A DNA stretch of 64,000 nucleotides from Psychroserpens ponticola (GTDB taxonomy: Bacteria > Bacteroidota > Bacteroidia > Flavobacteriales > Flavobacteriaceae), in the NCBI RefSeq assembly GCF_023556315.2, contig NZ_CP116221.1, positions 372,001 to 436,000 on the forward strand, given 5' to 3'. The position numbers and the translations under genes were made by a program. Under the pieces are notes generated by a model that saw only the letters and a program-made list of their open reading frames with translations, did not search any database and was not told the DNA's origin. Shown in pieces: positions 3,119-46,127 of this stretch (its first letter is position 1; every line of letters begins with the position of its first letter).

Positions 3119-4329
3119 AAGAAGCATACATTATAGACGGAATTAGAACACCAATTGGAAACTACAAAGGTACATTGTCAGCTGTTCGAACAGATGATTT
3201 AGGTGCAATTGTAATTGAAGAAATCGTAAAACGAAATCCAAGTATCCCAAAAGAAGCTTATGATGATGTTATTATGGGTTGTGCAAACCAAGCAGGAGAA
3301 GACAATCGTAACGTCGCAAGAATGTCCTCTTTATTAGCAGGTTTACCATTTACGGTTCCTGGAGAAACGGTTAATAGGTTATGTAGTTCTGGATTATCAG
3401 CTATAATTCACGCAAATCGAGCTATCAAAGCTGGAGATGGAGATCTATTTATTTCAGGAGGTGTTGAAAATATGACACGTGGACCATACGTCATTGCAAA
3501 ACCTTCAACTGGATTTGGTGGTGATTCAAAAATGTATGATTCTACGTTCGGATGGCGTTTTATAAACCCTAAAATGCAAGAATTATATGGAACGGATGGT
3601 ATGGGGAATACTGCCGAAAACTTAGTAGCAAAGTATGCCATTTCAAGATTAGATCAAGATAAATTTGCATATTGGAGTCAAATGAAAGCCACTAAAGCTC
3701 AAGAAAGTGGCAGATTGGCTAAGGAAATTGTAACTGTGGAAATTCCTCAACGCAAAAAAGATCCAATTCGATTTTCAAAAGATGAATTTGTAAAACCAAC
3801 AACATCCTTAGAAGTCTTAGGGAAGTTAAGACCAGCCTTTAAAAAAGAAGGTGGAAGTGTAACCGCTGGAAATTCTTCAGGATTAAACGATGGAGCAGCG
3901 GCAACTATTATTGCTTCTCAAGATGCTGTTGAAAAATATAATCTAAAACCCTTAGCTAGAATTGTAAGTTCTGCAGTGGTTGGAGTAGAACCAAGAATTA
4001 TGGGTATTGGTCCAGTTCAAGCGTCTAATAAAGCTTTAGGAAAAGCTGGATTGACGATGAATGATATGGATGTGATCGAGTTAAACGAAGCTTTTGCAGC
4101 ACAAGCATTAGCTTGTACTAGAGCTTGGGGATTAGCAGATGACGATCCTAGATTAAATCCAAATGGAGGTGCAATCGCTATTGGTCACCCACTAGGAGTA
4201 ACAGGTGCGAGAGTAGCTTATTCAGCAGCTTTAGAATTACAAGTGCAAAATAAGCGTTATGCGTTAATTACGATGTGTATTGGTGTTGGTCAAGGGTATG
4301 CCGCAATTATTGAGAATGTGAATTTGTAA
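3115..4329 (+). CDS. paaJ: PaaJ, 3-oxoadipyl-CoA/3-oxo-5,6-dehydrosuberyl-CoA thiolase
   Basis: This 404-residue thiolase II family enzyme performs the final cleavages of the phenylacetate route, giving acetyl-CoA and succinyl-CoA. The acylated Cys is in VNRLCSSGLSAI (about residue 90). The His loop is NPNGGAIAIGHPLG, and the second catalytic Cys is in MCIGVGQG near the C-terminus. ATG 3115 overlaps the paaI stop by the ATGA arrangement; a TTG three codons earlier is possible but unneeded. The paa context makes PaaJ/PcaF specificity more likely than a general acetyl-CoA acetyltransferase. Confidence 0.9.
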   Translation: MKEAYIIDGIRTPIGNYKGTLSAVRTDDLGAIVIEEIVKRNPSIPKEAYDDVIMGCANQAGEDNRNVARMSSLLAGLPFTVPGETVNRLCSSGLSAIIHANRAIKAGDGDLFISGGVENMTRGPYVIAKPSTGFGGDSKMYDSTFGWRFINPKMQELYGTDGMGNTAENLVAKYAISRLDQDKFAYWSQMKATKAQESGRLAKEIVTVEIPQRKKDPIRFSKDEFVKPTTSLEVLGKLRPAFKKEGGSVTAGNSSGLNDGAAATIIASQDAVEKYNLKPLARIVSSAVVGVEPRIMGIGPVQASNKALGKAGLTMNDMDVIELNEAFAAQALACTRAWGLADDDPRLNPNGGAIAIGHPLGVTGARVAYSAALELQVQNKRYALITMCIGVGQGYAAIIENVNL

Positions 4330-9269: not shown

Positions 9270-10598
9270 ATGTCAAAATTCGAATTCAAAATGCCCAAAT
9301 TGGGAGAAAGCATTACCGAAGCAGCCATTATTACCTGGTTCAAAAATATTGGTGATACCATAGAAGAAGATGAAATGTTTCTAGAAGTTGCTACAGATAA
9401 AGTAGATTCTGAAGTGCCTTCAACAGTTTCAGGAGTTATTGAAGCTATTTTATATAATGCCAATGATGTTATCAAAATAGGTGAAACTATCGCTATAATT
9501 AAGGTAAATAAAACATTATCTTCAAAATCTAAAACTAATACAAAGCAAGATATCACGTCGAGCACAGTTAAGGCGTCTCAAAAGAAAGATGAAAAAGCTA
9601 AAAAAACGCGTACTGTCACATCGAGCGCAGTCGAGATGTCTCATTCAAATTCGTTTTCAGTATCTAACAGTAATACTTTTTTTTCACCATTAGTAGTCAA
9701 AATCGCCAAAGAACATCATATTAGTTTTGAAGAATTAGCAAGAATTCCTGCAACTGGTCACGACAATCGCTTACGTAAAAGTGATGTCTTTCAATACATA
9801 GAAGATGGAAGACCATTTAAATTTGCGCAACCTGTTGCACAACAAGATCCAACAGCTTATCGTATTCCGCAATTGAATTTTGATAAAGGCAAAGGCAAAG
9901 TGATTGAAATGGATAGAATGCGACAAATGATTGCAGATCATATGGTGTATTCAAAGCATACTTCACCTCATGTTACAGCTTATGTTGAGGCAGATTTAAC
10001 CAATATGGTAAATTGGCGAAATGCGAATAAAGTGGCATTTCAAGAAAAACATGGCGAGCGTTTAACATTTACACCATTGTTCGTTGAAGCTGTTGCAAAA
10101 GCAATAAAAGATTTTCCAAATATTAATGCTTCAGTTGATGGTAAAAACATCATCGTTAAAGAGAATATCAATATTGGTATGGCAACGGCTTTGCCTAGTG
10201 GGAATTTGATTGTTCCAGTAGTTCGAAATGCTGATACGAAAGATTTAAAAACATTAGCAGTCAATGTAAATGAACTTGCAAATAAAGCTCGAGAGAATAA
10301 TTTAAAAGCTGACGACATTCAAGGAAGCACTTTCACAATTTCAAATGTAGGAACCTTTGGAAGTGTTATGGGCACACCAATTATTAATCAGCCAGAAGTC
10401 GCTATTCTTGCTTTAGGAATTATAAAAAAACGCCCTGAAGTAATTACCACAGAAAAAGGTGATGAAATCGCAATAAGAAGTATGATGTATTTATCCTTAT
10501 CATTTGACCATAGAGTTGTTGATGGATTTTTAGGCGGAAGCTTTGTGCGTTGTGTTGCAGATTACTTTGAGCAATTTGATAGCAATAGAGAAATTTAA
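9270..10598 (+). CDS. Dihydrolipoamide acyltransferase E2 of branched-chain 2-oxoacid dehydrogenase
   Basis: This 442-residue E2 transfers acyl groups from lipoyl-lysine to CoA. It has an N-terminal lipoyl domain with Lys44 in EVATDKVDSEVP, then a Ser/Thr/Lys-rich linker. The peripheral subunit-binding domain lies at about 135-170 (PLVVKIAKEHHISFEEL, DVFQYIED). The catalytic domain carries His414 and Asp418 in SFDHRVVDGF. The linker contains two copies of a repeat-encoded peptide: residues 95-103 (ITSSTVKAS) and 116-124 (VTSSAVEMS). ATG 9270 is chosen; a TTG at 9258 is in frame but unnecessary. The adjacent fused E1 points to the branched-chain (BkdB-like) complex. No E3 gene is present in the window. 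Confidence 0.85.
   Translation: MSKFEFKMPKLGESITEAAIITWFKNIGDTIEEDEMFLEVATDKVDSEVPSTVSGVIEAILYNANDVIKIGETIAIIKVNKTLSSKSKTNTKQDITSSTVKASQKKDEKAKKTRTVTSSAVEMSHSNSFSVSNSNTFFSPLVVKIAKEHHISFEELARIPATGHDNRLRKSDVFQYIEDGRPFKFAQPVAQQDPTAYRIPQLNFDKGKGKVIEMDRMRQMIADHMVYSKHTSPHVTAYVEADLTNMVNWRNANKVAFQEKHGERLTFTPLFVEAVAKAIKDFPNINASVDGKNIIVKENINIGMATALPSGNLIVPVVRNADTKDLKTLAVNVNELANKARENNLKADDIQGSTFTISNVGTFGSVMGTPIINQPEVAILALGIIKKRPEVITTEKGDEIAIRSMMYLSLSFDHRVVDGFLGGSFVRCVADYFEQFDSNREI
9552..9643 (+). repeat. Two P repeat copies inside the E2 linker, translated in frame
   Basis: Copy 1 (9552-9579) is the more diverged: ATCACGTCGAGCACAGTTAA. Copy 2 (9613-9643) is GTCACATCGAGCGCAGTCGA then GATGTCTCA. Both are read in the same frame and give I/V-T-S-S-T/A-V-K/E-x-S within the flexible linker, separated by a Lys-rich stretch. 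Confidence 0.78.
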
Positions 10599-10745: not shown

Positions 10746-12833
10746 ATGGACAAAGAGATACTAAAGAAAGGATTTTCAAATTTGTGTACAGCCAAAGCAA
10801 TGGCAGAATTATACGAAGCTAATTTTAAGCAAGTTTCAAAATATGTACACGCAACCTCAAGAGGTCATGAAGCCATTCAAGTGGCTTTAGGAATGCAATT
10901 ATTACCACAAGATTATGCGTTTCCATATTATAGAGATGATGCCATGTTGTTGTCATTCGGATTAGAACCATATGATTTAATGTTGCAATTATTAGCCAAA
11001 AAATCTGATCCGTTTTCTGGTGGAAGAACCTATTATTCACATCCAAGTTTGAAGGATGATGATAAACCTAAAATTCCGCATCAATCCTCTGCAACTGGTA
11101 TGCAAGCCATTCCTGCAACAGGTGTTGCTATGGGAATGCAATATAAAGAATTGCAAGGTTTAGATGATTTTAGTTTAGAATCAGACCCTGTGAGTTCGAG
11201 CGCAGTCGAGAACGCTCTCAAACCAATAACAGTGTGTTCTCTTGGAGACGCTTCGGTTACCGAAGGTGAAATAGCCGAAGCCTTTCAAATGGCTGCCTTA
11301 AAGCAAATGCCAATACTTTATTTGGTTCAAGATAACGGTTGGGATATTTCGGCTAATGCAGCCGAAACTAGAGCTCAAAATGCTCATGAATATGCGCAAG
11401 GATTCCATGGATTAGAAGCTATTACAATTGATGGTGCAAATTTTATAGAAAGCTATGAAGCTGTACAGAAGGTAATCAAAACCATTCGTGAAGAACGACG
11501 ACCATTTTTAATACATGCAAAAGTCCCGTTATTGAATCATCATACCTCAGGAGTAAGAATGGAATGGTATCGTGATGATTTGGAAGAAGCTAAATCTCGT
11601 GATCCTTATCCTGTTTTAAAACAACAATTATTAGATAATGGGTTTTCTTTAAAGGAAGTTGATGCTATCGAAAATTCCGCGAAAGCGAAAGTTGAAGGTG
11701 ATTTTAAGGAAGCTTTAAAAGCGGATGATCCAACACCTGAAGATCTATTTACTAACGATTTTGCGCCTACGCCTATTACTGAAGAAAAAGGAACACGTGC
11801 TCCTGAAGGTGCAGAGAAAGTGGTCATGGTCGATTGTGCCTTATTTGCCGTTGAAGAATTGATGAAAAAGCACCAAGAATGTTTGCTTTACGGTCAAGAT
11901 GTTGGTGGACGACTTGGAGGTGTGTTTAGAGAAGCTGCAACCTTAGCTCAGAAATTTGGTGATGATCGCGTGTTTAATACACCAATTCAGGAAGCATTTA
12001 TTGTTGGTTCTACGGTTGGCATGAGTGCTGTTGGATTAAAACCCATTGTTGAGGTTCAGTTTGCTGATTATATTTGGCCTGGATTAAATCAGTTGTTTAC
12101 TGAAGTAAGTCGAAGCTGTTACCTTTCAAACGGAAAATGGCCTGTAAGCATGATTCTTCGTGTGCCAATTGGCGCTTATGGAAGTGGAGGACCATATCAT
12201 TCGTCTTCTGTTGAAAGTGTAATTACTAACATTCGCGGCATTAAAATCGCGTATCCAAGTAATGGCGCAGATTTAAAAGGTTTGATGAAAGCGGCTTTTT
12301 ATGACCCGAATCCAGTTGTAATTTTAGAACACAAAGGCTTGTATTGGTCAAAAGTGCCTGGAACTTTAACTGCAACATCTGTAGAACCTTCTGAAGATTA
12401 TGTGTTGCCTTTTGGAAAAGCTTGGATATTACAAGAAATTTGGAAACAAGACGATGTTGAAACCTTAACTATTGTTACTTATGGAATGGGAGTGCATTGG
12501 GCTTATAATGCATCTGGAGAATTAGGAATGCGAGATCAAATTGAAATAATTGATTTACGAACCTTATTTCCGTTAGACGAAGACACGATTATGAAATCGG
12601 TTAAAAAGACAGGGAAGTGTTTAGTAGTTACAGAAGAACCTTCCAATAATAGTTTTGCCAGAGCATTGTCTGGTAAAATTCAAGAAGAATGCTTTAAATA
12701 TTTAGATGCTCCAGTGATGACTATTGGTAGTGAGAATATGCCAGCAATTCCATTAAATTCTACGTTAGAGGAAACCATGATTCCTTCAACTAAAAAAGTG
12801 AAAACTAAAATAGAAGTATTGTTAAGTTACTAG
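10746..12833 (+). CDS. Branched-chain 2-oxoacid dehydrogenase E1, fused alpha and beta subunits
   Basis: This 695-residue protein joins E1-alpha (about 1-330) and E1-beta (about 355-695) in one chain. It decarboxylates 2-oxo acids with thiamine diphosphate and loads the E2 lipoyl group. The alpha half shows the family start with TSRGHEAIQVALG and the ThDP segment CSLGDASVTEGEIAEAFQ ... QDNGWDIS. The beta half shows LYGQDVGGRLGGVFREA, FNTPIQEAFIVG and VEVQFADYIWPG. A P repeat copy encodes residues 149-157 (VSSSAVENA) directly before the ThDP-binding strand, which may lengthen a surface loop. ATG 10746 is the first in frame. The fused architecture is common in Bacteroidota. A 2-oxoisovalerate substrate is inferred from the family. 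Confidence 0.86.
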   Translation: MDKEILKKGFSNLCTAKAMAELYEANFKQVSKYVHATSRGHEAIQVALGMQLLPQDYAFPYYRDDAMLLSFGLEPYDLMLQLLAKKSDPFSGGRTYYSHPSLKDDDKPKIPHQSSATGMQAIPATGVAMGMQYKELQGLDDFSLESDPVSSSAVENALKPITVCSLGDASVTEGEIAEAFQMAALKQMPILYLVQDNGWDISANAAETRAQNAHEYAQGFHGLEAITIDGANFIESYEAVQKVIKTIREERRPFLIHAKVPLLNHHTSGVRMEWYRDDLEEAKSRDPYPVLKQQLLDNGFSLKEVDAIENSAKAKVEGDFKEALKADDPTPEDLFTNDFAPTPITEEKGTRAPEGAEKVVMVDCALFAVEELMKKHQECLLYGQDVGGRLGGVFREAATLAQKFGDDRVFNTPIQEAFIVGSTVGMSAVGLKPIVEVQFADYIWPGLNQLFTEVSRSCYLSNGKWPVSMILRVPIGAYGSGGPYHSSSVESVITNIRGIKIAYPSNGADLKGLMKAAFYDPNPVVILEHKGLYWSKVPGTLTATSVEPSEDYVLPFGKAWILQEIWKQDDVETLTIVTYGMGVHWAYNASGELGMRDQIEIIDLRTLFPLDEDTIMKSVKKTGKCLVVTEEPSNNSFARALSGKIQEECFKYLDAPVMTIGSENMPAIPLNSTLEETMIPSTKKVKTKIEVLLSY
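11190..11219 (+). repeat. P repeat copy inside the E1 gene, translated in frame
   Basis: GTGAGTTCGAGCGCAGTCGA then GAACGCTCTC contains the exact 16-bp P core TCGAGCGCAGTCGAGA. It is translated V-S-S-S-A-V-E-N-A, the same frame as in paaH and E2. Confidence 0.8.
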
Positions 12834-37321: not shown

Positions 37322-37472
37322 TTTGGGCGTTACAATTTACTTATACCTACAAGGTTTTTAAAACCTCGCAGGATGCAAATTGTCAGGCTTTTCACTGTAT
37401 CTTTTTATTTGTCTCTTCGAGCGCAGTCGAGAAGTCGTCAAATAAAAAGGATGCCGTTTCAATCCTTAACGC
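37322..37472. repeat. Composite repeat D with nested E and P repeats
   Basis: D begins TTTGGGCGTTAC (37322) and ends AATCCTTAACGC (37472), as at 4335-4460. Shared inner parts are CTTTTCACTGTATCTTTTT and AAAAAGGATGCCGTTTCAAT. E (37346-37372, CCTACAAGGTTTTTAAAACC...) and P (37411-37434, CTTCGAGCGCAGTCGAGAAG) are nested inside. The first D copy has A nested instead. Confidence 0.75.
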
Positions 37473-37521: not shown

Positions 37522-38304
37522 CTATAAACTTTTTGTTCGTCCACCATCCACAGGAAGATTAATTCCATTGATATAAGCAGCAGGTTCACTAGCTAAAAAA
37601 GTTATGGCTGCAGCTAATTCTTCTGGTTTGGCAAAACGTTTTGCAGGCACAGCACTTTTCATAGCATTGGCAGATTCGTCTTCGGTTTTTCCTGTTTTAG
37701 CCGATTTGTTTTTAATGATTTCAGCTAAACGATCTGTTCCTGTAGCGCCAGGAAGTACATTATTGACAGTAATTCCAAATTGACCTAATTCATTAGCTAA
37801 GGTTTTGCTCCAATTGGCAACAGCACCACGAATGGTATTGCTAACACCTAAACCATCAAGAGGTTGTTTTACAGACGTTGAAATCACATTAATAATCCGA
37901 CCATAATTTTCGCTTTTCATATAAGGAACAACCGCTTGTGCTAACACATGATTGCATTTTAAATGTTGCGTAAACGCACTTTCGAATTCTGAGACTTCAG
38001 CAGAAAATACGGGTCCACCTTTTGGTCCTCCAGTATTATTCACTAAAATGTGAAATCCGTGATGTTGAGAAATATAGGCTTCTACTTTTGTTTTCAATGC
38101 TGCTGGATTAGAAAAATCGGCTACGATGTAATCATGAGCTCTGTGTTGAGGTAATTCAGCTAAAGTTGTTTTAAGTTTATCTTCATTTCTAGCAATAAGA
38201 GTGACTTGAACCCCTTCTTCAGCTAAAGCGATTGCTGTTGCTTTTCCTATTCCTGCTGTGCTTCCACAGACTAATGCGTATTTATTATTTAAGTTTAAAT
38301 TCAT
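37522..38304 (-). CDS. SDR-family protein lacking the YxxxK motif
   Basis: This 260-residue Rossmann protein has the SDR cofactor motif VCGSTAGIGKA, NNTGG (NNAG place) and VLPGATGTD, and a family-typical end (YINGINLPVDGG). In the active-site region the sequence is ISTSVKQPLDGLGVSNTIRG: the catalytic Tyr and Lys positions appear as Ser and Arg. The gene may therefore be a divergent SDR without normal reductase chemistry. Such SNTxR-type SDRs occur in other bacteria. It is embedded in the kynurenine cluster between the ALDH and the dioxygenase, with repeats on both sides. Role in the pathway is unclear. Confidence 0.82.
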   Translation of the reverse strand: MNLNLNNKYALVCGSTAGIGKATAIALAEEGVQVTLIARNEDKLKTTLAELPQHRAHDYIVADFSNPAALKTKVEAYISQHHGFHILVNNTGGPKGGPVFSAEVSEFESAFTQHLKCNHVLAQAVVPYMKSENYGRIINVISTSVKQPLDGLGVSNTIRGAVANWSKTLANELGQFGITVNNVLPGATGTDRLAEIIKNKSAKTGKTEDESANAMKSAVPAKRFAKPEELAAAITFLASEPAAYINGINLPVDGGRTKSL

Positions 38305-38316
38305 AATATGGTTTTG

Positions 38317-38411
38317 GCGTCAGTTCGAGTGAAAATTCTTTTTTAGAATTTTTATATCGAGAACAAATTACATCTTGATACAATTTTTTTCAAAAATCAC
38401 TCGATGTGACG
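38317..38411. repeat. Head-to-head pair of A repeats
   Basis: A forward (38317-38364: CGTCAGTTCGAGTGAAAATT ... TATATCGAGAAC) faces A reverse (38371-38411: TCTTGATACAATT ... CACTCGATGTGACG). The arrangement is like 9152-9254 and 10603-10706. It occupies the whole gap between the SDR and ALDH genes. Confidence 0.78.
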
Positions 38412-38412
38412 A

Positions 38413-40203
38413 TTAATATTTTATACATACATTCTTAGCTTCAGTAAAAAAGCGTAAGGCTTCAAAACCACCTTCACGCCCAACACCTGATGCTTTAACT
38501 CCTCCAAATGGTGTTCGTAAATCTCGCATCATCCAGGTATTTACCCAAACGATACCAGCTTGTAATTGGTTGCTCATTCGCATGGTGCGTTTTAAATCGT
38601 TTGTCCAAAGTGTTGCTGATAATCCGTATTTAACTTTGTTTGCCATTTTTAATACATGGTCTTCAGTATTAAAAGGTATAATAGTCACTACTGGACCAAA
38701 AATTTCTTCCTGATTCACACGACACTCATCATTAGGTACTTCAATAACGGTTGGTTCTAAGTAATATCCATTTTCATAACCTTTGACTAAGACTTCCTTT
38801 CCACCACATAACACCGTTCCATTTTCGTCTTTAGCAATTTGGATGTATTCTTTTACTTTCTCTAAATGTGGTTTTGATACTAAAGCACCAATATTCGTGT
38901 CAGCTTCAGATGGATGACCTACTTTGAGTTGTTTTATTTTTTCAACAAAATCAGTTTTGAACTTGTCATAAATAGAAGCTTCCACAAAAATCCTACTTCC
39001 GCAAAGGCAAATCTGACCTTGATTAGCAAAAGAGGAACGGACTGTTGTATTTAACATATCGTCATAATCGCAATCTGCAAAAATGATGTTTGGGTTTTTT
39101 CCACCTAATTCCAACGATAGTTTTTTAAACATTGGTGCTGCCACTTTTGCAATGTGAGCTCCAGTTGCTGTTCCACCAGTAAAACTAATGGCTTTAATAT
39201 CTAGATGTTCAATAATGGCTTGTCCAGTTGAACCACCAAGACCATGAACAATATTTAAAACACCTTTTGGGAGTCCAGCTTCATTACAAATTTCACCTAA
39301 AAGGTAAGCAGTCATTGGTGTAACTTCACTCGGTTTTGCTACGACGCAATTTCCAGCAGCTAGAGCAGGAGCGATTTTCCAAGTAAAGAGATAGAGTGGA
39401 AGGTTCCAAGGTGAAATGCAACCCACAACTCCAATAGGTTGACGTAAAGTATAATTGATGGCTTGCTGTCCGACACTTTCATGGCTTTCACTAGCAAATT
39501 GAGTAATGGCATTTCCGAAGAACCGAAAATTACTTGCTGCTCTTGGAATGTCAACACTTTTAGCTAATGAAACAGGTTTGCCATTGTCTTTAGATTCTGC
39601 TTCTGCAAAGCGTTGTACGTTAGCTTCGAGTAATTCTGAGATTTTGATGAGAATGCGACTGCGTTCTTCTAAAGTGGTTTGTGACCACACAGGAAAAGCA
39701 GATTTTGCAGCTATATATGCGTTTTCAACGTCTTCTTTTGACGAGTTTGGTATTTGTCCGTAAACTTCACCGTTTGAAGGGTTATAATTATCAATCCATT
39801 GGTCTTGAATTGGATTGTGGAAGTTTCCGTTGATATAGTTTTTTATGTTCATTTTATTGTCTGGTCGAGCGCAGTCGAGACCTACTTTATTGTTAGGATT
39901 ATAATTAGAATGTGTTGCATTTCTACATTCAGATAAAATATGCAACAAATCAAACTCTCCGTTGGCTAAAGCTAGTTTCTTTTTTGCACTCCAATTTTTA
40001 ATTTTCTTCTCAAAAAGTATTGCTTGCTCAATATCGTTAAATTCTTGATGAAATATTAATTTTAAAGGTCTTCTTTTGTATGTAAAACAATTTTTATTCC
40101 TTCCTTTTTGATGTTCTTCTAATCTTCTAGATAAATCGTTTGTAACTCCTGTGTAAGTTAAATTGTCTGAACATTGTAATATGTAAACAAAATATGATTT
40201 CAA
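38413..40203 (-). CDS. 2-aminomuconate-semialdehyde dehydrogenase fused in frame to an N-terminal GIY-YIG nuclease
   Basis: The frame encodes 596 residues. Residues 1-95 are a GIY-YIG endonuclease domain of the small UPF0213-like type (YFVYILQC, YTGVTNDLSRRLEEH, EQAILFEKKIKNWS). Residues 96-117 are repeat-derived (LSECRNATHSNY, KVGLDCARPDNK). From residue 118 an entire aldehyde dehydrogenase follows, starting MNIKNYINGNFHNP, with LELGGKNPN (Glu), NQGQICLCGSR (catalytic Cys) and RTPFGGVKASGVGREGG. The ALDH alone (ATG at 39852, 479 residues) is of family length and resembles ALDH8/NbaE enzymes that oxidise 2-aminomuconate semialdehyde. No stop codon separates the parts. The nuclease frame starts with TTG at 40203. 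I infer that an element inserted 5 bp upstream of the ALDH start. Whether a fused protein is made is unknown. Confidence 0.85.
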   Translation of the reverse strand: MKSYFVYILQCSDNLTYTGVTNDLSRRLEEHQKGRNKNCFTYKRRPLKLIFHQEFNDIEQAILFEKKIKNWSAKKKLALANGEFDLLHILSECRNATHSNYNPNNKVGLDCARPDNKMNIKNYINGNFHNPIQDQWIDNYNPSNGEVYGQIPNSSKEDVENAYIAAKSAFPVWSQTTLEERSRILIKISELLEANVQRFAEAESKDNGKPVSLAKSVDIPRAASNFRFFGNAITQFASESHESVGQQAINYTLRQPIGVVGCISPWNLPLYLFTWKIAPALAAGNCVVAKPSEVTPMTAYLLGEICNEAGLPKGVLNIVHGLGGSTGQAIIEHLDIKAISFTGGTATGAHIAKVAAPMFKKLSLELGGKNPNIIFADCDYDDMLNTTVRSSFANQGQICLCGSRIFVEASIYDKFKTDFVEKIKQLKVGHPSEADTNIGALVSKPHLEKVKEYIQIAKDENGTVLCGGKEVLVKGYENGYYLEPTVIEVPNDECRVNQEEIFGPVVTIIPFNTEDHVLKMANKVKYGLSATLWTNDLKRTMRMSNQLQAGIVWVNTWMMRDLRTPFGGVKASGVGREGGFEALRFFTEAKNVCIKY

Positions 40204-40249
40204 TTTAAATTATTATTTAAAGTAGGTCTCGACTGCGCTCGACCTGACA
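39858..40249 (-). mobile_element. Candidate GIY-YIG/P-repeat element with 28-bp terminal inverted repeats
   Basis: The left end (39858-39885, TGTCTGGTCGAGCGCAGTCG...) and right end (40222-40249, GTAGGTCTCGACTGCGCTCG...) are inverted copies matching at 27 of 28 bases. Both contain the P core. Between them lies only the GIY-YIG nuclease reading frame (start 40203, 18 bp inside the right end), which reads out through the left end into the ALDH gene. Total length is 392 bp. No transposase is present. By analogy with REP-associated tyrosine transposases, the nuclease may act on, or spread with, the P palindromes. This is inference. Confidence 0.55.
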
Positions 40250-40280
40250 AACCTTAAGTACAAGAAGTGACAAGTTAACA

Positions 40281-41021
40281 TTATTTTATATAATTTTCTA
40301 TAGCTTCTTTTAATTTTTCTGCTTCAATATTGACTTTATTTAAGGTTTCTAAGTAAGCAATATTAACGCCTAAAAAAGCATTTAATGATTGTTGATATTC
40401 GCGATCACTTTTTAGCCCTTCAAAATCATTGGGTACCATTTTGTCAATAGAATCATTAACAATGACTGTTGTGAAATACGTTCTGTAATAATCTAACATA
40501 TAACTGTAGAAATCTAAATGCACTTCTTGAAAACTTCCTTTTGTATCATTTATAGATGAGGTATGGAATTTTCCAATTTCAGAACGCAACTGTGGATCTT
40601 CAATAAGATCTGTTCCTATAGAAACCAGAGATTGATAACCACTAGTTTTAAAATCAATTTCATCATATGCATTAACAGCTCTAAAATGATAAGCAAGAGA
40701 ATCGTGATAGGTGTTGTCTGTTTCTAGGACATCAATTATTGTTTTAATAGAATTAATTGTTCTGTTTAAATTATTGGTTCTAGTATTAAGAACTCTGTCT
40801 AAATCAAAAAGTGTGTAGTCTAAATCTGAAATAATCTCAGTGAGTACTTGTCGCTCTTTTTCTTTCTGTTTTTTGTGTTCATTCCAGTTGTTGATCTGAA
40901 GCGCAATTAAAATCCCAATAACTACAAGAATAATTTCACCAATGGCATATTTGAAATATTTGCCTGTTTTGTTTTCCATAATTTGGTTTTGACGAATCTT
41001 TCTGAAGAATTTAATCATCAT
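40281..41021 (-). CDS. DUF6090 family membrane protein (array copy 1, last in order of transcription)
   Basis: This 246-residue protein has the DUF6090 N-terminus: basic FFRKIRQNQIMENKTGKYFK, then one hydrophobic segment IGEIILVVIGILIALQINNW (about residues 30-50). A variable, mainly helical soluble part of ~190 residues follows, with FKTSGYQSLVSIG, the GFEALKNSG-type motif of the family. Function is unknown. Its first ATG (41021) overlaps the stop of copy 2 (ATGA), and it ends 32 bp before the P repeat that bounds the GIY-YIG element. Confidence 0.85.
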   Translation of the reverse strand: MMIKFFRKIRQNQIMENKTGKYFKYAIGEIILVVIGILIALQINNWNEHKKQKEKERQVLTEIISDLDYTLFDLDRVLNTRTNNLNRTINSIKTIIDVLETDNTYHDSLAYHFRAVNAYDEIDFKTSGYQSLVSIGTDLIEDPQLRSEIGKFHTSSINDTKGSFQEVHLDFYSYMLDYYRTYFTTVIVNDSIDKMVPNDFEGLKSDREYQQSLNAFLGVNIAYLETLNKVNIEAEKLKEAIENYIK

Positions 41022-41788
41022 TTTATATTAAATCTAACTTCTAACTCTTTATTAATGTTTTCTAAATGCTTTTTAATATCCTCAACTATATAATAAAGCC
41101 TTAAGCGATAGTCTTCTTTTTTATTAGCTTGTAAAAGCAAATATTCTTTATATATTGGATGGTGGATTTGCTCAACATTGTATCTGCGGCTTTTGTAAAA
41201 ACCTGTAGTGTCTTTATTGGGCTTAAAATAATCTTCGTAAAGATTGATGTCTTTCAATTGTTTGTTCTTTTCAATGATCTCATTTTCATACCTAACATAT
41301 ATATTATCCATAAAGTACTTCGTACGTGGTAAAGAAACTTCATAAAAACGTATAAGGCTGTTACGCAGAGAATCTGTTTTAATTTTTTCAACACCACTAG
41401 ATTTTAATGCTTCATACGCACCTTTGTCATATGAAAACACTAAACCCCAATTTGCTTTTTGAATAAGTTTAGTAATTGTTTTGTCATTAAGTTGTAATCG
41501 ATTTTGCCTAACGAGTAAAAGGCTATCTATGGCTTGATCTTTAACAATGTTTCGATCACCTAATCGTTGAAAAAGTGAAAAGTCGTTTTGAAGTGATTTT
41601 TGAATTTCAACTAAAATTTGTTTTTCATATTGGCGTTCTTGTCGGTTGTTATTCCAATTATTAATCTGAAGTGCAATGAGAATCCCAATCACGACGAGGA
41701 TAATTTCACCAATAGCATATTTGAAATATCTACTTGTTTTATTTTCCCTGAGGAGGTTTTGACGGATTTTTGTAAAGAATTTTATCAT
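41018..41788 (-). CDS. DUF6090 family membrane protein (array copy 2)
   Basis: This 256-residue paralog has the N-terminal module MIKFFTKIRQNLLRENKTSR and TM segment GEIILVVIGILIALQINNW. A soluble helical part contains YDKGAYEALKSSGVEKI, the shared central motif, followed by LRNSLIRFYE. The last ~100 residues differ strongly from the other copies. It overlaps copy 3 by 4 bp (ATGA), so the pair is translationally coupled. Membrane topology is one TM helix with a short basic cytosolic N-terminus by the positive-inside rule. Confidence 0.85.
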   Translation of the reverse strand: MIKFFTKIRQNLLRENKTSRYFKYAIGEIILVVIGILIALQINNWNNNRQERQYEKQILVEIQKSLQNDFSLFQRLGDRNIVKDQAIDSLLLVRQNRLQLNDKTITKLIQKANWGLVFSYDKGAYEALKSSGVEKIKTDSLRNSLIRFYEVSLPRTKYFMDNIYVRYENEIIEKNKQLKDINLYEDYFKPNKDTTGFYKSRRYNVEQIHHPIYKEYLLLQANKKEDYRLRLYYIVEDIKKHLENINKELEVRFNIK

Positions 41789-42540
41789 TTTGTATTTTCA
41801 ATTAATGACATGACTTTTTTTGCAGCACTATCCATAGTTTCATAGCTTTTAAGAATGGTTCTTAACCTTGACACCCTAAAATTAGCGCCTTTAAAAGCTG
41901 GAAAATTCATTAGTTGATGTGCCTTTTTTAAATTGTCTTCAGTTGGATCGCTTCTGATGTCTTTTATAGCAGTAATAAATTGAAGTACAACATTAGATTT
42001 AAACATGTCATATTCCATTTCTTCTATAAAGTTATTCAAGCTCTGTTCTTCTTGTTCAATATCTGTAACTAAATTATAATACTTATAGAGTTCTGTTTCT
42101 ATAACAGTGCCTTGAATTTTACTTAAGTAACCTGAGTTTTTTAAGGCTTCAAATCCGCTTTTGTCAGATTTAAAATAGACATCAAAAAGGCTATTGTATT
42201 TATATAAATACGTTGATGTATATTCACTAAATTCATCAATTGTTATTGTGTTTTGATTTGCAAGTTTTATAAACTGTTGCGCACCCAATTTCGAACTGTC
42301 TCGAAAGCTCTTAATAACATTTAGATCTATGACATCTGATTGTATATTCTTAGAAATATTATTAAGATAGCCTTTTAGTTCGGCTTTTTGTTTGTTGTTC
42401 TCATTCCAATTATTAATCTGAAGTGCAATGAGAATCCCAATCACGACGAGCACTATTTCTCCAATGGCATATTTGAAGTATTTGGATGTTTTGTTTTCCA
42501 TGAGTAAGTTTTTGCGAATATGTCTAAAGAATTTAATCAT
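41785..42540 (-). CDS. DUF6090 family membrane protein (array copy 3)
   Basis: This 251-residue paralog has MIKFFRHIRKNLLMENKTSK and TM segment GEIVLVVIGILIALQINNW. The central motif SDKSGFEALKNSGYLSKI and ELYKYYNLVTDIEQEEQ follow, then a divergent C-terminal half. Gap to copy 4 is 6 bp. Base-level similarity among copies is strongest in the first ~160 bp (membrane module) and fades beyond, which fits duplication with divergence, or gene conversion limited to the 5' part. Confidence 0.85.
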   Translation of the reverse strand: MIKFFRHIRKNLLMENKTSKYFKYAIGEIVLVVIGILIALQINNWNENNKQKAELKGYLNNISKNIQSDVIDLNVIKSFRDSSKLGAQQFIKLANQNTITIDEFSEYTSTYLYKYNSLFDVYFKSDKSGFEALKNSGYLSKIQGTVIETELYKYYNLVTDIEQEEQSLNNFIEEMEYDMFKSNVVLQFITAIKDIRSDPTEDNLKKAHQLMNFPAFKGANFRVSRLRTILKSYETMDSAAKKVMSLIENTK

Positions 42541-44110: not shown

Positions 44111-44139
44111 GAAATGTTTCGACTACGCTCAACATTACA
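44111..44139. repeat. P-like repeat between ridA and the DUF6090 array
   Basis: GAAATGTTTCGACTACGCTC then AACATTACA is a diverged P copy in the same orientation as the copy at 40222-40249. The two bracket the DUF6090 array as direct repeats. Confidence 0.7.
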
Positions 44140-44568: not shown

Positions 44569-44617
44569 TGTCTGGTCGAGTGCAGTCGAGACCTCTCGAC
44601 TGCGCTCGAGGTGACAT
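44569..44617. repeat. Back-to-back inverted P repeats between KMO and ridA genes
   Basis: TTGTCTGGTCGAGTGCAGTC...GAGACC is followed at once by CTCTCGACTGCGCTCGAGGT...GACAT. Each half is a palindrome and the two are also inverted relative to each other. They fill almost the entire 61-bp gap. Confidence 0.8.
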
Positions 44618-46022: not shown

Positions 46023-46127
46023 TTGTCTGGTCGAGTACAGTCGAGACCTTTTTGAGACCTCTCGCTAACTGCGTTGTGTACTTTCAATGAAAACATATTT
46101 TCACTTCAGTAGTGCTCGAGGTGACAC
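46023..46127. repeat. P repeat joined to a reverse C repeat between kynureninase and KMO
   Basis: P (46023-46050, TTGTCTGGTCGAGTACAGTC...GAGACC) is followed by C in reverse (about 46054-46127): GAGACCTCTCGCTAACTGCG ... GAAAACATATTTTC ... GCTCGAGGTGACAC. The C copy matches 2618-2691 along its whole length with few differences. Confidence 0.78.

Follow-up and report, generated by a model that had tools for sequence, protein, structure and literature searches.

A small GIY-YIG nuclease gene enclosed by inverted TGTC-tagged palindromes, a candidate mobile REP unit of Psychroserpens ponticola and its relatives

The 64,000-nucleotide stretch of Psychroserpens ponticola contig NZ_CP116221.1 analysed in this study (positions 372,001 to 436,000, hereafter the window) carries, at 39857-40250, a small GIY-YIG nuclease gene enclosed by inverted copies of a TGTC-tagged palindrome, termed P. 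Judged from comparative sequence data, this locus is probably a compact mobile unit of nuclease and repetitive extragenic palindrome (REP), analogous to the systems of REPs and REP-associated tyrosine transposases (RAYT) but built on a GIY-YIG nuclease, and the other P copies would be its non-autonomous relatives or relics. The unit is likewise likely to be one case of a widespread class, that of small GIY-YIG nucleases each linked to a TGTC/CGTC-tagged REP family of its own. The nuclease would drive the spread of P, as an earlier note on this DNA had proposed, and the unit may be autonomous. Repeat flanking, moved or empty sites, the pairing of nuclease clades with palindrome types and genome-wide counts are consistent with such a driver, whereas the cutting and the driver role are steps that we infer.

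The nuclease unit and its counterparts in relatives

The left end of the unit at 39858-39885 is TGTCTGGTCGAGCGCAGTCGAGACCTAC and the reverse complement of 40222-40249 is TGTCAGGTCGAGCGCAGTCGAGACCTAC, which are identical at 27 of 28 positions, as the earlier note had found, and the inverted match can be extended to 33 bp with one mismatch (39857-39889 on the forward strand, 40218-40250 on the reverse strand). Both the left end (P), downstream of the nuclease frame, and the right end (P'), upstream of the nuclease start, consist of a TGTC tag and a hairpin, and the unit of about 0.38-0.39 kb therefore reads TGTC-hairpin (P), GIY-YIG gene and inverted P-GACA. Between the ends lies one frame, as previously claimed, whose 106 amino acids from a TTG start (39886-40203, reverse strand) form a GIY-YIG nuclease domain (PF01541, E 5e-18; 65.5 bits against a cut-off of 22.6) and place the protein in the GIY-YIG nuclease superfamily. 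However, this frame is not closed. No stop codon separates it from the palindrome, and it stays open through the latter into an aldehyde dehydrogenase gene (38413-39852, reverse strand; assigned by Pfam and locus comparison), so that one frame of 596 amino acids spans nuclease, palindrome and dehydrogenase (38413-40203, reverse strand; Pfam GIY-YIG at 4-76 and Aldedh at 135-592). In nine named relatives, the stop is located just before the palindrome (four), just past it (three) or early (two). The copy in the window may be decaying or becoming fused, and a natural fusion or translational coupling is possible for the 596-residue frame.

The motif residues Y7, Y17, G19, R27, H31 and E65 are each kept in 100-104 of the 104 relatives without an internal stop, and the ratio of nonsynonymous to synonymous differences (pN/pS) between the window's nuclease and seven relatives is 0.16-0.24 at high synonymous divergence. 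These values show purifying selection on the nuclease protein at the level of its coding sequence; internal stops are present in 12 of 118 copies. By sequence, its structure relatives are the UPF0213 GIY-YIG proteins PDB 1zg2 (E 7e-12) and 1ywl (E 8e-8), both entries of hypothetical proteins, and the intron endonuclease 1mk0 matched weakly (E 0.52). One of the four GIY-YIG matches in the window's genome is flanked by palindromes. The idea that P also stands at the others was rejected, as all three are more than 10 kb away from any P site (at most two mismatches), and the frame lengths suggest that two of them are UvrC and a polymerase-exonuclease fusion.

Flanks were taken for 118 nuclease matches, mostly from Flavobacteriaceae and other families of the order, weaker listed matches being left out; a score of 12 or more was called an inverted repeat, and 149 other open reading frames of the same loci served as control. 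Inverted repeats stand at both ends of 73 of the 118 nuclease genes (66 of 97 at 50% identity or more, 7 of 21 below), and 2 of the 149 control frames are bracketed, both in loci with two nuclease copies (L158 and L216). The comparison of P around GIY-YIG genes with P around other genes, which the earlier note had named as its test, hence came out in its favour (66 of 97 against 2 of 149). When the upstream flank of one gene was combined with the downstream flank of another, 279 of 1000 mixtures scored, because flank types are common within clades. Nine named flavobacterial loci contain the whole gene region (a tenth, L087, is cut by a contig end and lies outside this count), and seven of them have the exact P core on both sides, the remaining two having degenerate copies on one side (L079) or on both (L082). 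Across 299 genomes of the family, where a nuclease match had to reach E 1e-30 and exact P at least three copies, 44 possess both nuclease and P, 16 only the nuclease, 39 only P and 200 neither (odds ratio 14, Fisher p 7e-17, kinship ignored).

Palindrome types and nuclease clades

The core of P, TCGAGCGCAGTCGAGA, has nine sites in the window at up to three mismatches, against 0.05 expected, and 88 sites at up to two mismatches in the 4.03-Mb genome, including 38 exact ones, while the same pattern read backwards as control gave none there. For further description we used the 96 sites of this genome at up to three mismatches, which comprise 90 distinct 29-mers. The TGTC tag is present on one end only, with each base found in 84-94 of the 96 sites and all four in 73, and next to it comes a hairpin with four to five pairs and then two more, a loop of 6 nt and a bulge of 2 nt. 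In the 90 different sites, pairs 5-24, 6-23 and 8-21 covary more than in shuffles, being formed in 79, 84 and 85 cases (shuffled means 40.7, 36.1 and 73.0; maxima 53, 51 and 78) by three, four and two Watson-Crick types, respectively; the outermost A-T pair is without covariation support (51 of 90 formed, against a mean of 55.6 in shuffles), and there is hardly any variation in the other pairs. In 19 of the 25 close P pairs of the genome, the tags point outward like those of the nuclease unit; they point inward in 6, and no pair is in tandem. With the 38 exact cores and 19 outward pairs, copies of P have their ends in common with a unit in the same genome, in the manner of miniature inverted-repeat transposable elements. 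In addition, 22 of the 96 sites lie within open frames of at least 130 codons, two of them in LeuRS, a count that includes the unit's own end and one doubtful 136-codon frame, and the other 74 lie outside long open frames.

Relatives of the nuclease carry other palindromes as well. On a tree of 118 proteins, the flank types were P (45), C (24), Q (14), S (3), E (2) and B (2), the 28 rows with no or multiple labels not being counted. Flank type changes 6 times on this tree, close to the minimum of 5, against a mean of 39.9 in shuffles, none of which (0 of 200) was as low; the labels accept a one-sided palindrome where no two-sided one exists, and the tree was built from few columns and leaves many forks open. 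Six genomes possess both P-clade and C-clade nucleases, and each copy carries its own flank type, two-sided in 10 of the 12 copies and one-sided for the C copies of G132 and G309. As these are paralogues of one genome with palindromes of their own, the effect is separated from host ancestry.

The same relation extends to copy numbers. Clades were drawn by hand from the tree and cover 40 P-clade and 20 C-clade genomes, six of them in both; L165, L175, L179, L185, L189 and L200 were left out, and G150 was counted as P only because L185, a C-flanked nuclease, is among these. The 34 P-clade-only genomes have a median of 6.5 P and 0 C copies, and the 14 C-clade-only genomes 3 P and 8.5 C (Mann-Whitney p 1.3e-4), with P exceeding C in 26 of the former and C exceeding P in 11 of the latter. 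Four of the exceptions concern the loop variant TCGAGCGGAGTCGAGA, which flanks the nucleases of G106, G150, G152 and G310. These genomes carry 3, 17, 3 and 11 copies of the variant and 0, 0, 0 and 1 exact P, respectively, and the nuclease unit itself accounts for all three copies in G106 and two of three in G152. Elsewhere the variant is missing from G164, G223 and G207 and is found in 4 (G000), 5 (G016), 7 (G255) and 20 (G192) copies. At the level of sequence, a strong pairing between nuclease clade and palindrome type is thus shown, and the genome-wide counts lean the same way.

Tagged palindromes also bracket homologues outside this family. Seventeen of 33 plasmid records with a homologue were examined, picked for organism spread (eleven first and six after seeing those). 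Inverted CGTC-tagged palindromes bracket the gene in ten of them, with scores of 22 or more, namely in Azospirillum, Novosphingobium, Rhizobium CIAT894, Neorhizobium, Aeromonas, three Shinella and two Sphingobium. Two Sinorhizobium loci score 16 with a different palindrome, Planktothrix 12, Spirosoma 11, and two orthologous Rhizobium loci and Photobacterium 7-8. Among 16 mostly more distant loci that were scored separately (one, L107, is also in the 118-gene set), TGTC-tagged inverted repeats scoring at least 16 were found in four (L083, L107, Syntrophales L094 and Moraniibacteriota L095), repeats scoring at least 14 without a tag in the aligned part in five (L090, L091, L093, L096 and L099), and lower scores in seven. 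The flank repeats of L094 and L095 contain TGTCATTCCCGCGCAGGCGGGAATCCAG, and a listed Neisseria homologue is 61% identical to the nuclease of L095.

Two observations on these loci can be added. In L096, a GIY-YIG gene at about 4001-4306 lies within a 17-bp inverted repeat, TATACCCCACACCTTTT, which is not TGTC-tagged, and gene and repeat are perhaps another nuclease/repeat pair. The Sinorhizobium locus L262 carries the palindrome CCTGTGACAGGCACAGGAATGAGGG, and its 1.5-kb stretch has at least 912 matching places among 146 plasmid records, probably owing to such repeats.

Relocated, filled and empty sites

In relatives, the unit was found at two places of an operon that is of kynurenine type by gene content: before the aldehyde dehydrogenase gene (site A, as in the window) in ten distinct loci, and between this gene and a short-chain dehydrogenase-like (SDR-like) gene (site B) in nine. 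The units of G309 and G251 align over 379 bp with 84% identity, both starting with TGTCTCC and ending in CCAGACAAAC; one is located before the dehydrogenase and the other several genes further down. At site B, where relatives hold a whole unit, G207 has a solo P with one mismatch.

LeuRS provides two further positions, readable in 16 and 18 of 21 congeners, respectively. The first is empty in G005, G007, G011, G016, G017 and G020, holds P or a one-mismatch P in G000, G015 and G019, other palindromes in G004, G008, G009, G013 and G014, and a DUF559 frame in G002 and G012. The second is empty in 12 congeners and filled in six (P in one, other types in five), all at the same codon: P in G000, a CTGAGCGG-type palindrome in G010, an AGAGC-type in G008 and G016, a CGTC-REP-like one in G012 and several in G013.

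The DUF559 endonuclease-like frame (L236 nt 1015-1539 in G002, with PF04480 at E 2e-33; L238 nt 1027-1545 in G012) is in frame within LeuRS and occupies the position of palindromes in other species. A CCCTTAGGGAAGGATT-like sequence follows it in both genomes, and no exact 13-bp inverted repeats were found around the two inserts. Frame and repeat are perhaps a second nuclease/repeat pair.

In Azospirillum lipoferum 4B, the nuclease gene lies between sufB and sufC with a palindrome pair on each side, in a gap of 617 bp, and these flanking palindromes are CGTC-REPs. The corresponding gap measures 91 bp in A. ramasamyi and 87 bp in A. oryzae, with neither tag nor inverted repeat of at least 7 bp, and 129 bp with an untagged inverted repeat in A. 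sp. B510; the matching pieces are 97.4, 96.0 and 95.6% identical to those of strain 4B in A. ramasamyi, A. oryzae and A. sp. B510, respectively. We read the short gap as an empty site; loss in the others would be a less simple alternative. The LeuRS and sufB-sufC sites were thus seen both empty and filled, with flanks too diverged for base-exact ends. No orthologous empty site appeared among the matches listed for S. meliloti (15 of 146 records), Rhizobium CIAT894 (9 of 9) and Sphingobium (20 of 253), or in G089, of the genus of G309, where only one side of the operon region matched at length. By these comparisons of related genomes, the unit is shown to be present, absent or relocated, and it is mobile on an evolutionary scale. 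The earlier note had asked whether relatives have empty sites at such a locus, and the moved and empty sites speak in its favour.

The same sites bear on homing-like conversion, in which the nuclease would cut palindromes elsewhere and repair would copy in the nuclease-bearing version or the resident type, so that sites persist and their sequence is overwritten. Different palindrome types at one LeuRS codon across species agree with this, as does the solo P of G207 at a site where relatives have the whole unit. On the other hand, the sufB-sufC gaps of A. ramasamyi and A. oryzae are palindrome-free, and therefore the unit needed no resident palindrome there; the gaps between aldehyde dehydrogenase and SDR-like gene in L075 and G251 are also without P. 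We consider such conversion possible, if rather improbable, and it overlaps with a mobile unit, so that the chances given to the two are not exclusive.

Alternatively, the nuclease might be kept for a host role, such as the control of DNA uptake or recombination by cutting single-stranded repeats, as is reported for the Ssn nuclease of Neisseria, with the repeats being targets that spread otherwise. The purifying selection, the fact that many genera have kept the unit in the same operon and the reported Ssn work would fit a host role, but the gene itself is flanked, the unit relocates, several units with different palindromes occur per genome, and the internal stops point to a turnover more typical of selfish genes; this explanation is judged unlikely. 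Spread of the palindromes by a RAYT or another IS200-like transposase, with the GIY-YIG gene as passenger, is highly improbable. P does share the tag-plus-hairpin plan of REPs, and the window's genome has one Y1 (RAYT-type) match (E 1.9e-6). However, spread by a RAYT was rejected because 10 of 20 P-bearing genomes have no Y1 match, including G223, G175 and G212 with 79, 42 and 26 exact copies, and a passenger is not expected to track the palindrome type clade by clade. Chance was rejected by the flanking counts of relatives and control frames, and a terminator-like repeat that brackets the gene by accident is next to impossible, for although 74 of the 96 copies of P are outside long open frames, 22 are within them and the tag stands at one end only.

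Proposed mechanism, known repeats and neighbouring features

For a mobile unit of nuclease and REP, the following mechanism can be proposed. The nuclease would bind the folded palindrome as a single strand, which may arise in the lagging-strand template, in repair or in DNA uptake, and would cut at or near the TGTC tag. Cuts at two inverted copies might free or open the TGTC...GACA segment, and host repair or replication could then copy this segment elsewhere; partial products would be seen as small insertions of a single palindrome, including in-frame ones in essential genes. Since the hydrolysis of DNA by GIY-YIG enzymes involves no covalent bond between protein and DNA, the joining step would be the host's and not that of a transposase.

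Several results weigh against a mobile unit whose nuclease spreads its own palindrome. Among relatives at 50% identity or more, 31 of 97 score below 12, and flanking repeats are weak or missing at 5 of 17 plasmid loci. Sixteen of the 299 genomes have at least five P copies and no nuclease match at E 1e-15, and the 245 genomes outside both clades, which include nucleases not placed on the tree, comprise 34 with at least five P and 16 with at least five C. In G129, the nuclease is flanked by exact P (13 copies), yet the loop variant is commoner (26). The full tag is intact in only 73 of 96 sites, and single P copies are predicted to fold with no better energy than shuffles, so that the case for the hairpin rests on covariation. 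Under looser scoring, ten pairwise comparisons placed most alignment ends off the tag, the G309/G251 alignment extending about 34 bp beyond the left tag; none of the ten revealed one recent jump with base-exact ends, and no target duplication was found among the sites compared.

According to a 2013 survey (Di Nocera et al., PMC3733652), CGTC/TGTC-tagged palindromes occur in five phyla, apparently without a dedicated transposase; whether an enzyme spreads the CGTC class, and which, was not settled there. The earlier note knew of no described system of this kind, which has to be qualified, since CGTC/TGTC-tagged REPs are on record in that survey (PMC3733652) and GIY-YIG nucleases with cognate repeats have reportedly been described. 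A link between REPs and GIY-YIG nucleases was not found by title or abstract among the matches listed, in a coverage that has most subscription papers and bioRxiv outside it; literal palindrome sequence words gave no literature match in the same limited coverage. A study of 2025 reportedly describes Ssn proteins, small and widely distributed GIY-YIG site-specific single-strand nucleases, each with a cognate repeat. The Neisseria repeat is said to occur in hundreds of copies, with control of natural transformation as the role given, and the study is not known to deal with mobility of the gene-repeat unit, clade pairing in Bacteroidota or a link to CGTC-REPs. This work would make the pairing of enzyme and repeat partly known already.

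The unit resembles the REP/RAYT (TnpA-REP) systems of proteobacteria in its many tetranucleotide-tagged imperfect hairpins, often in inverted pairs and also present in coding genes, and in one small nuclease gene bracketed by inverted copies (RAYT features partly after PMC3733652). It differs in having a GIY-YIG enzyme instead of an HUH tyrosine transposase, and TGTC instead of GTAG as the tag. The likeness to CGTC-REPs as described in the same survey (PMC3733652) includes the CGTC/TGTC tag, the hairpin, copies in genes, presence in Bacteroidetes and the prevalence of one kind of inverted pair, where we equate the outward pairs of P (19 of 25) with the paper's head-to-head class by our own reading. 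CGTC-REP families 1-4 are characterized there by a stem of 8-9 bp, a loop of 4-5 nt, AT in the first two stem pairs and a CCA-like tail (PMC3733652), whereas the stem of P is bulged, with four to five and two pairs, its loop measures 6 nt, its supported outer pairs are mostly G-C and a conserved tail is lacking. P thus fits the CGTC-REP superfamily by tag and hairpin, but not families 1-4. The palindromes in frame in conserved protein genes also resemble the Rickettsia palindromic elements described in that paper (PMC3733652). GIY-YIG homing endonucleases of the I-TevI type share the Pfam domain, but in our case no intron was seen, the 106 residues include no separate DNA-binding domain, and repeats bracket the gene.

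The pairing of nuclease and palindrome names a testable candidate enzyme for the CGTC class. In a wider form, about which we are evenly divided, the tiny GIY-YIG family would be the dedicated mobilising enzyme of TGTC/CGTC palindromes in Bacteroidota, Pseudomonadota and several candidate phyla, and would constitute a second great REP system, with hydrolytic cutting of folded single strands without a transposase and co-evolution of clade and palindrome. If so, short repeats that are common in Bacteroidota and other phyla would have an explanation, as would palindromes in frame within LeuRS and other essential proteins, and there would be a set of nucleases whose specificity is readable from their own flanks.

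Solo P cores occur elsewhere in the window. Two on the forward strand lie in open frames that were named by eye, at 9621-9636 (449 codons, dihydrolipoamide acyltransferase-like) and 11196-11211 (659 codons, dehydrogenase E1-like), and a third, at 37417-37432 on the same strand, lies in a 136-codon stop-free stretch that is probably no gene; all three had been named before, the last one from 37418, a base later than its actual start. A P pair with tags outward and starts 18 bp apart is located at 44576-44609, and diverged solo cores at 44117-44132 (reverse strand, three mismatches) and 46031-46046 (forward strand, two mismatches).

As for the neighbouring genes, the SDR-like gene of the window was named by eye from an open frame at 37522-38304 (reverse strand). 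The intergene at 38305-38412, where relatives carry the P unit, is filled by a second palindrome pair (CGTCACATCGAGTG... / ...CACTCGAACTGACG), similar to the Q type, which in relatives stands beside a nuclease clade of its own. On the other side of the unit, 40281-42540 contains three tandem paralogues starting with MIKFF(R/T)(K/H)IR(Q/K)N, relatives of which also adjoin the nuclease unit in several other genomes.

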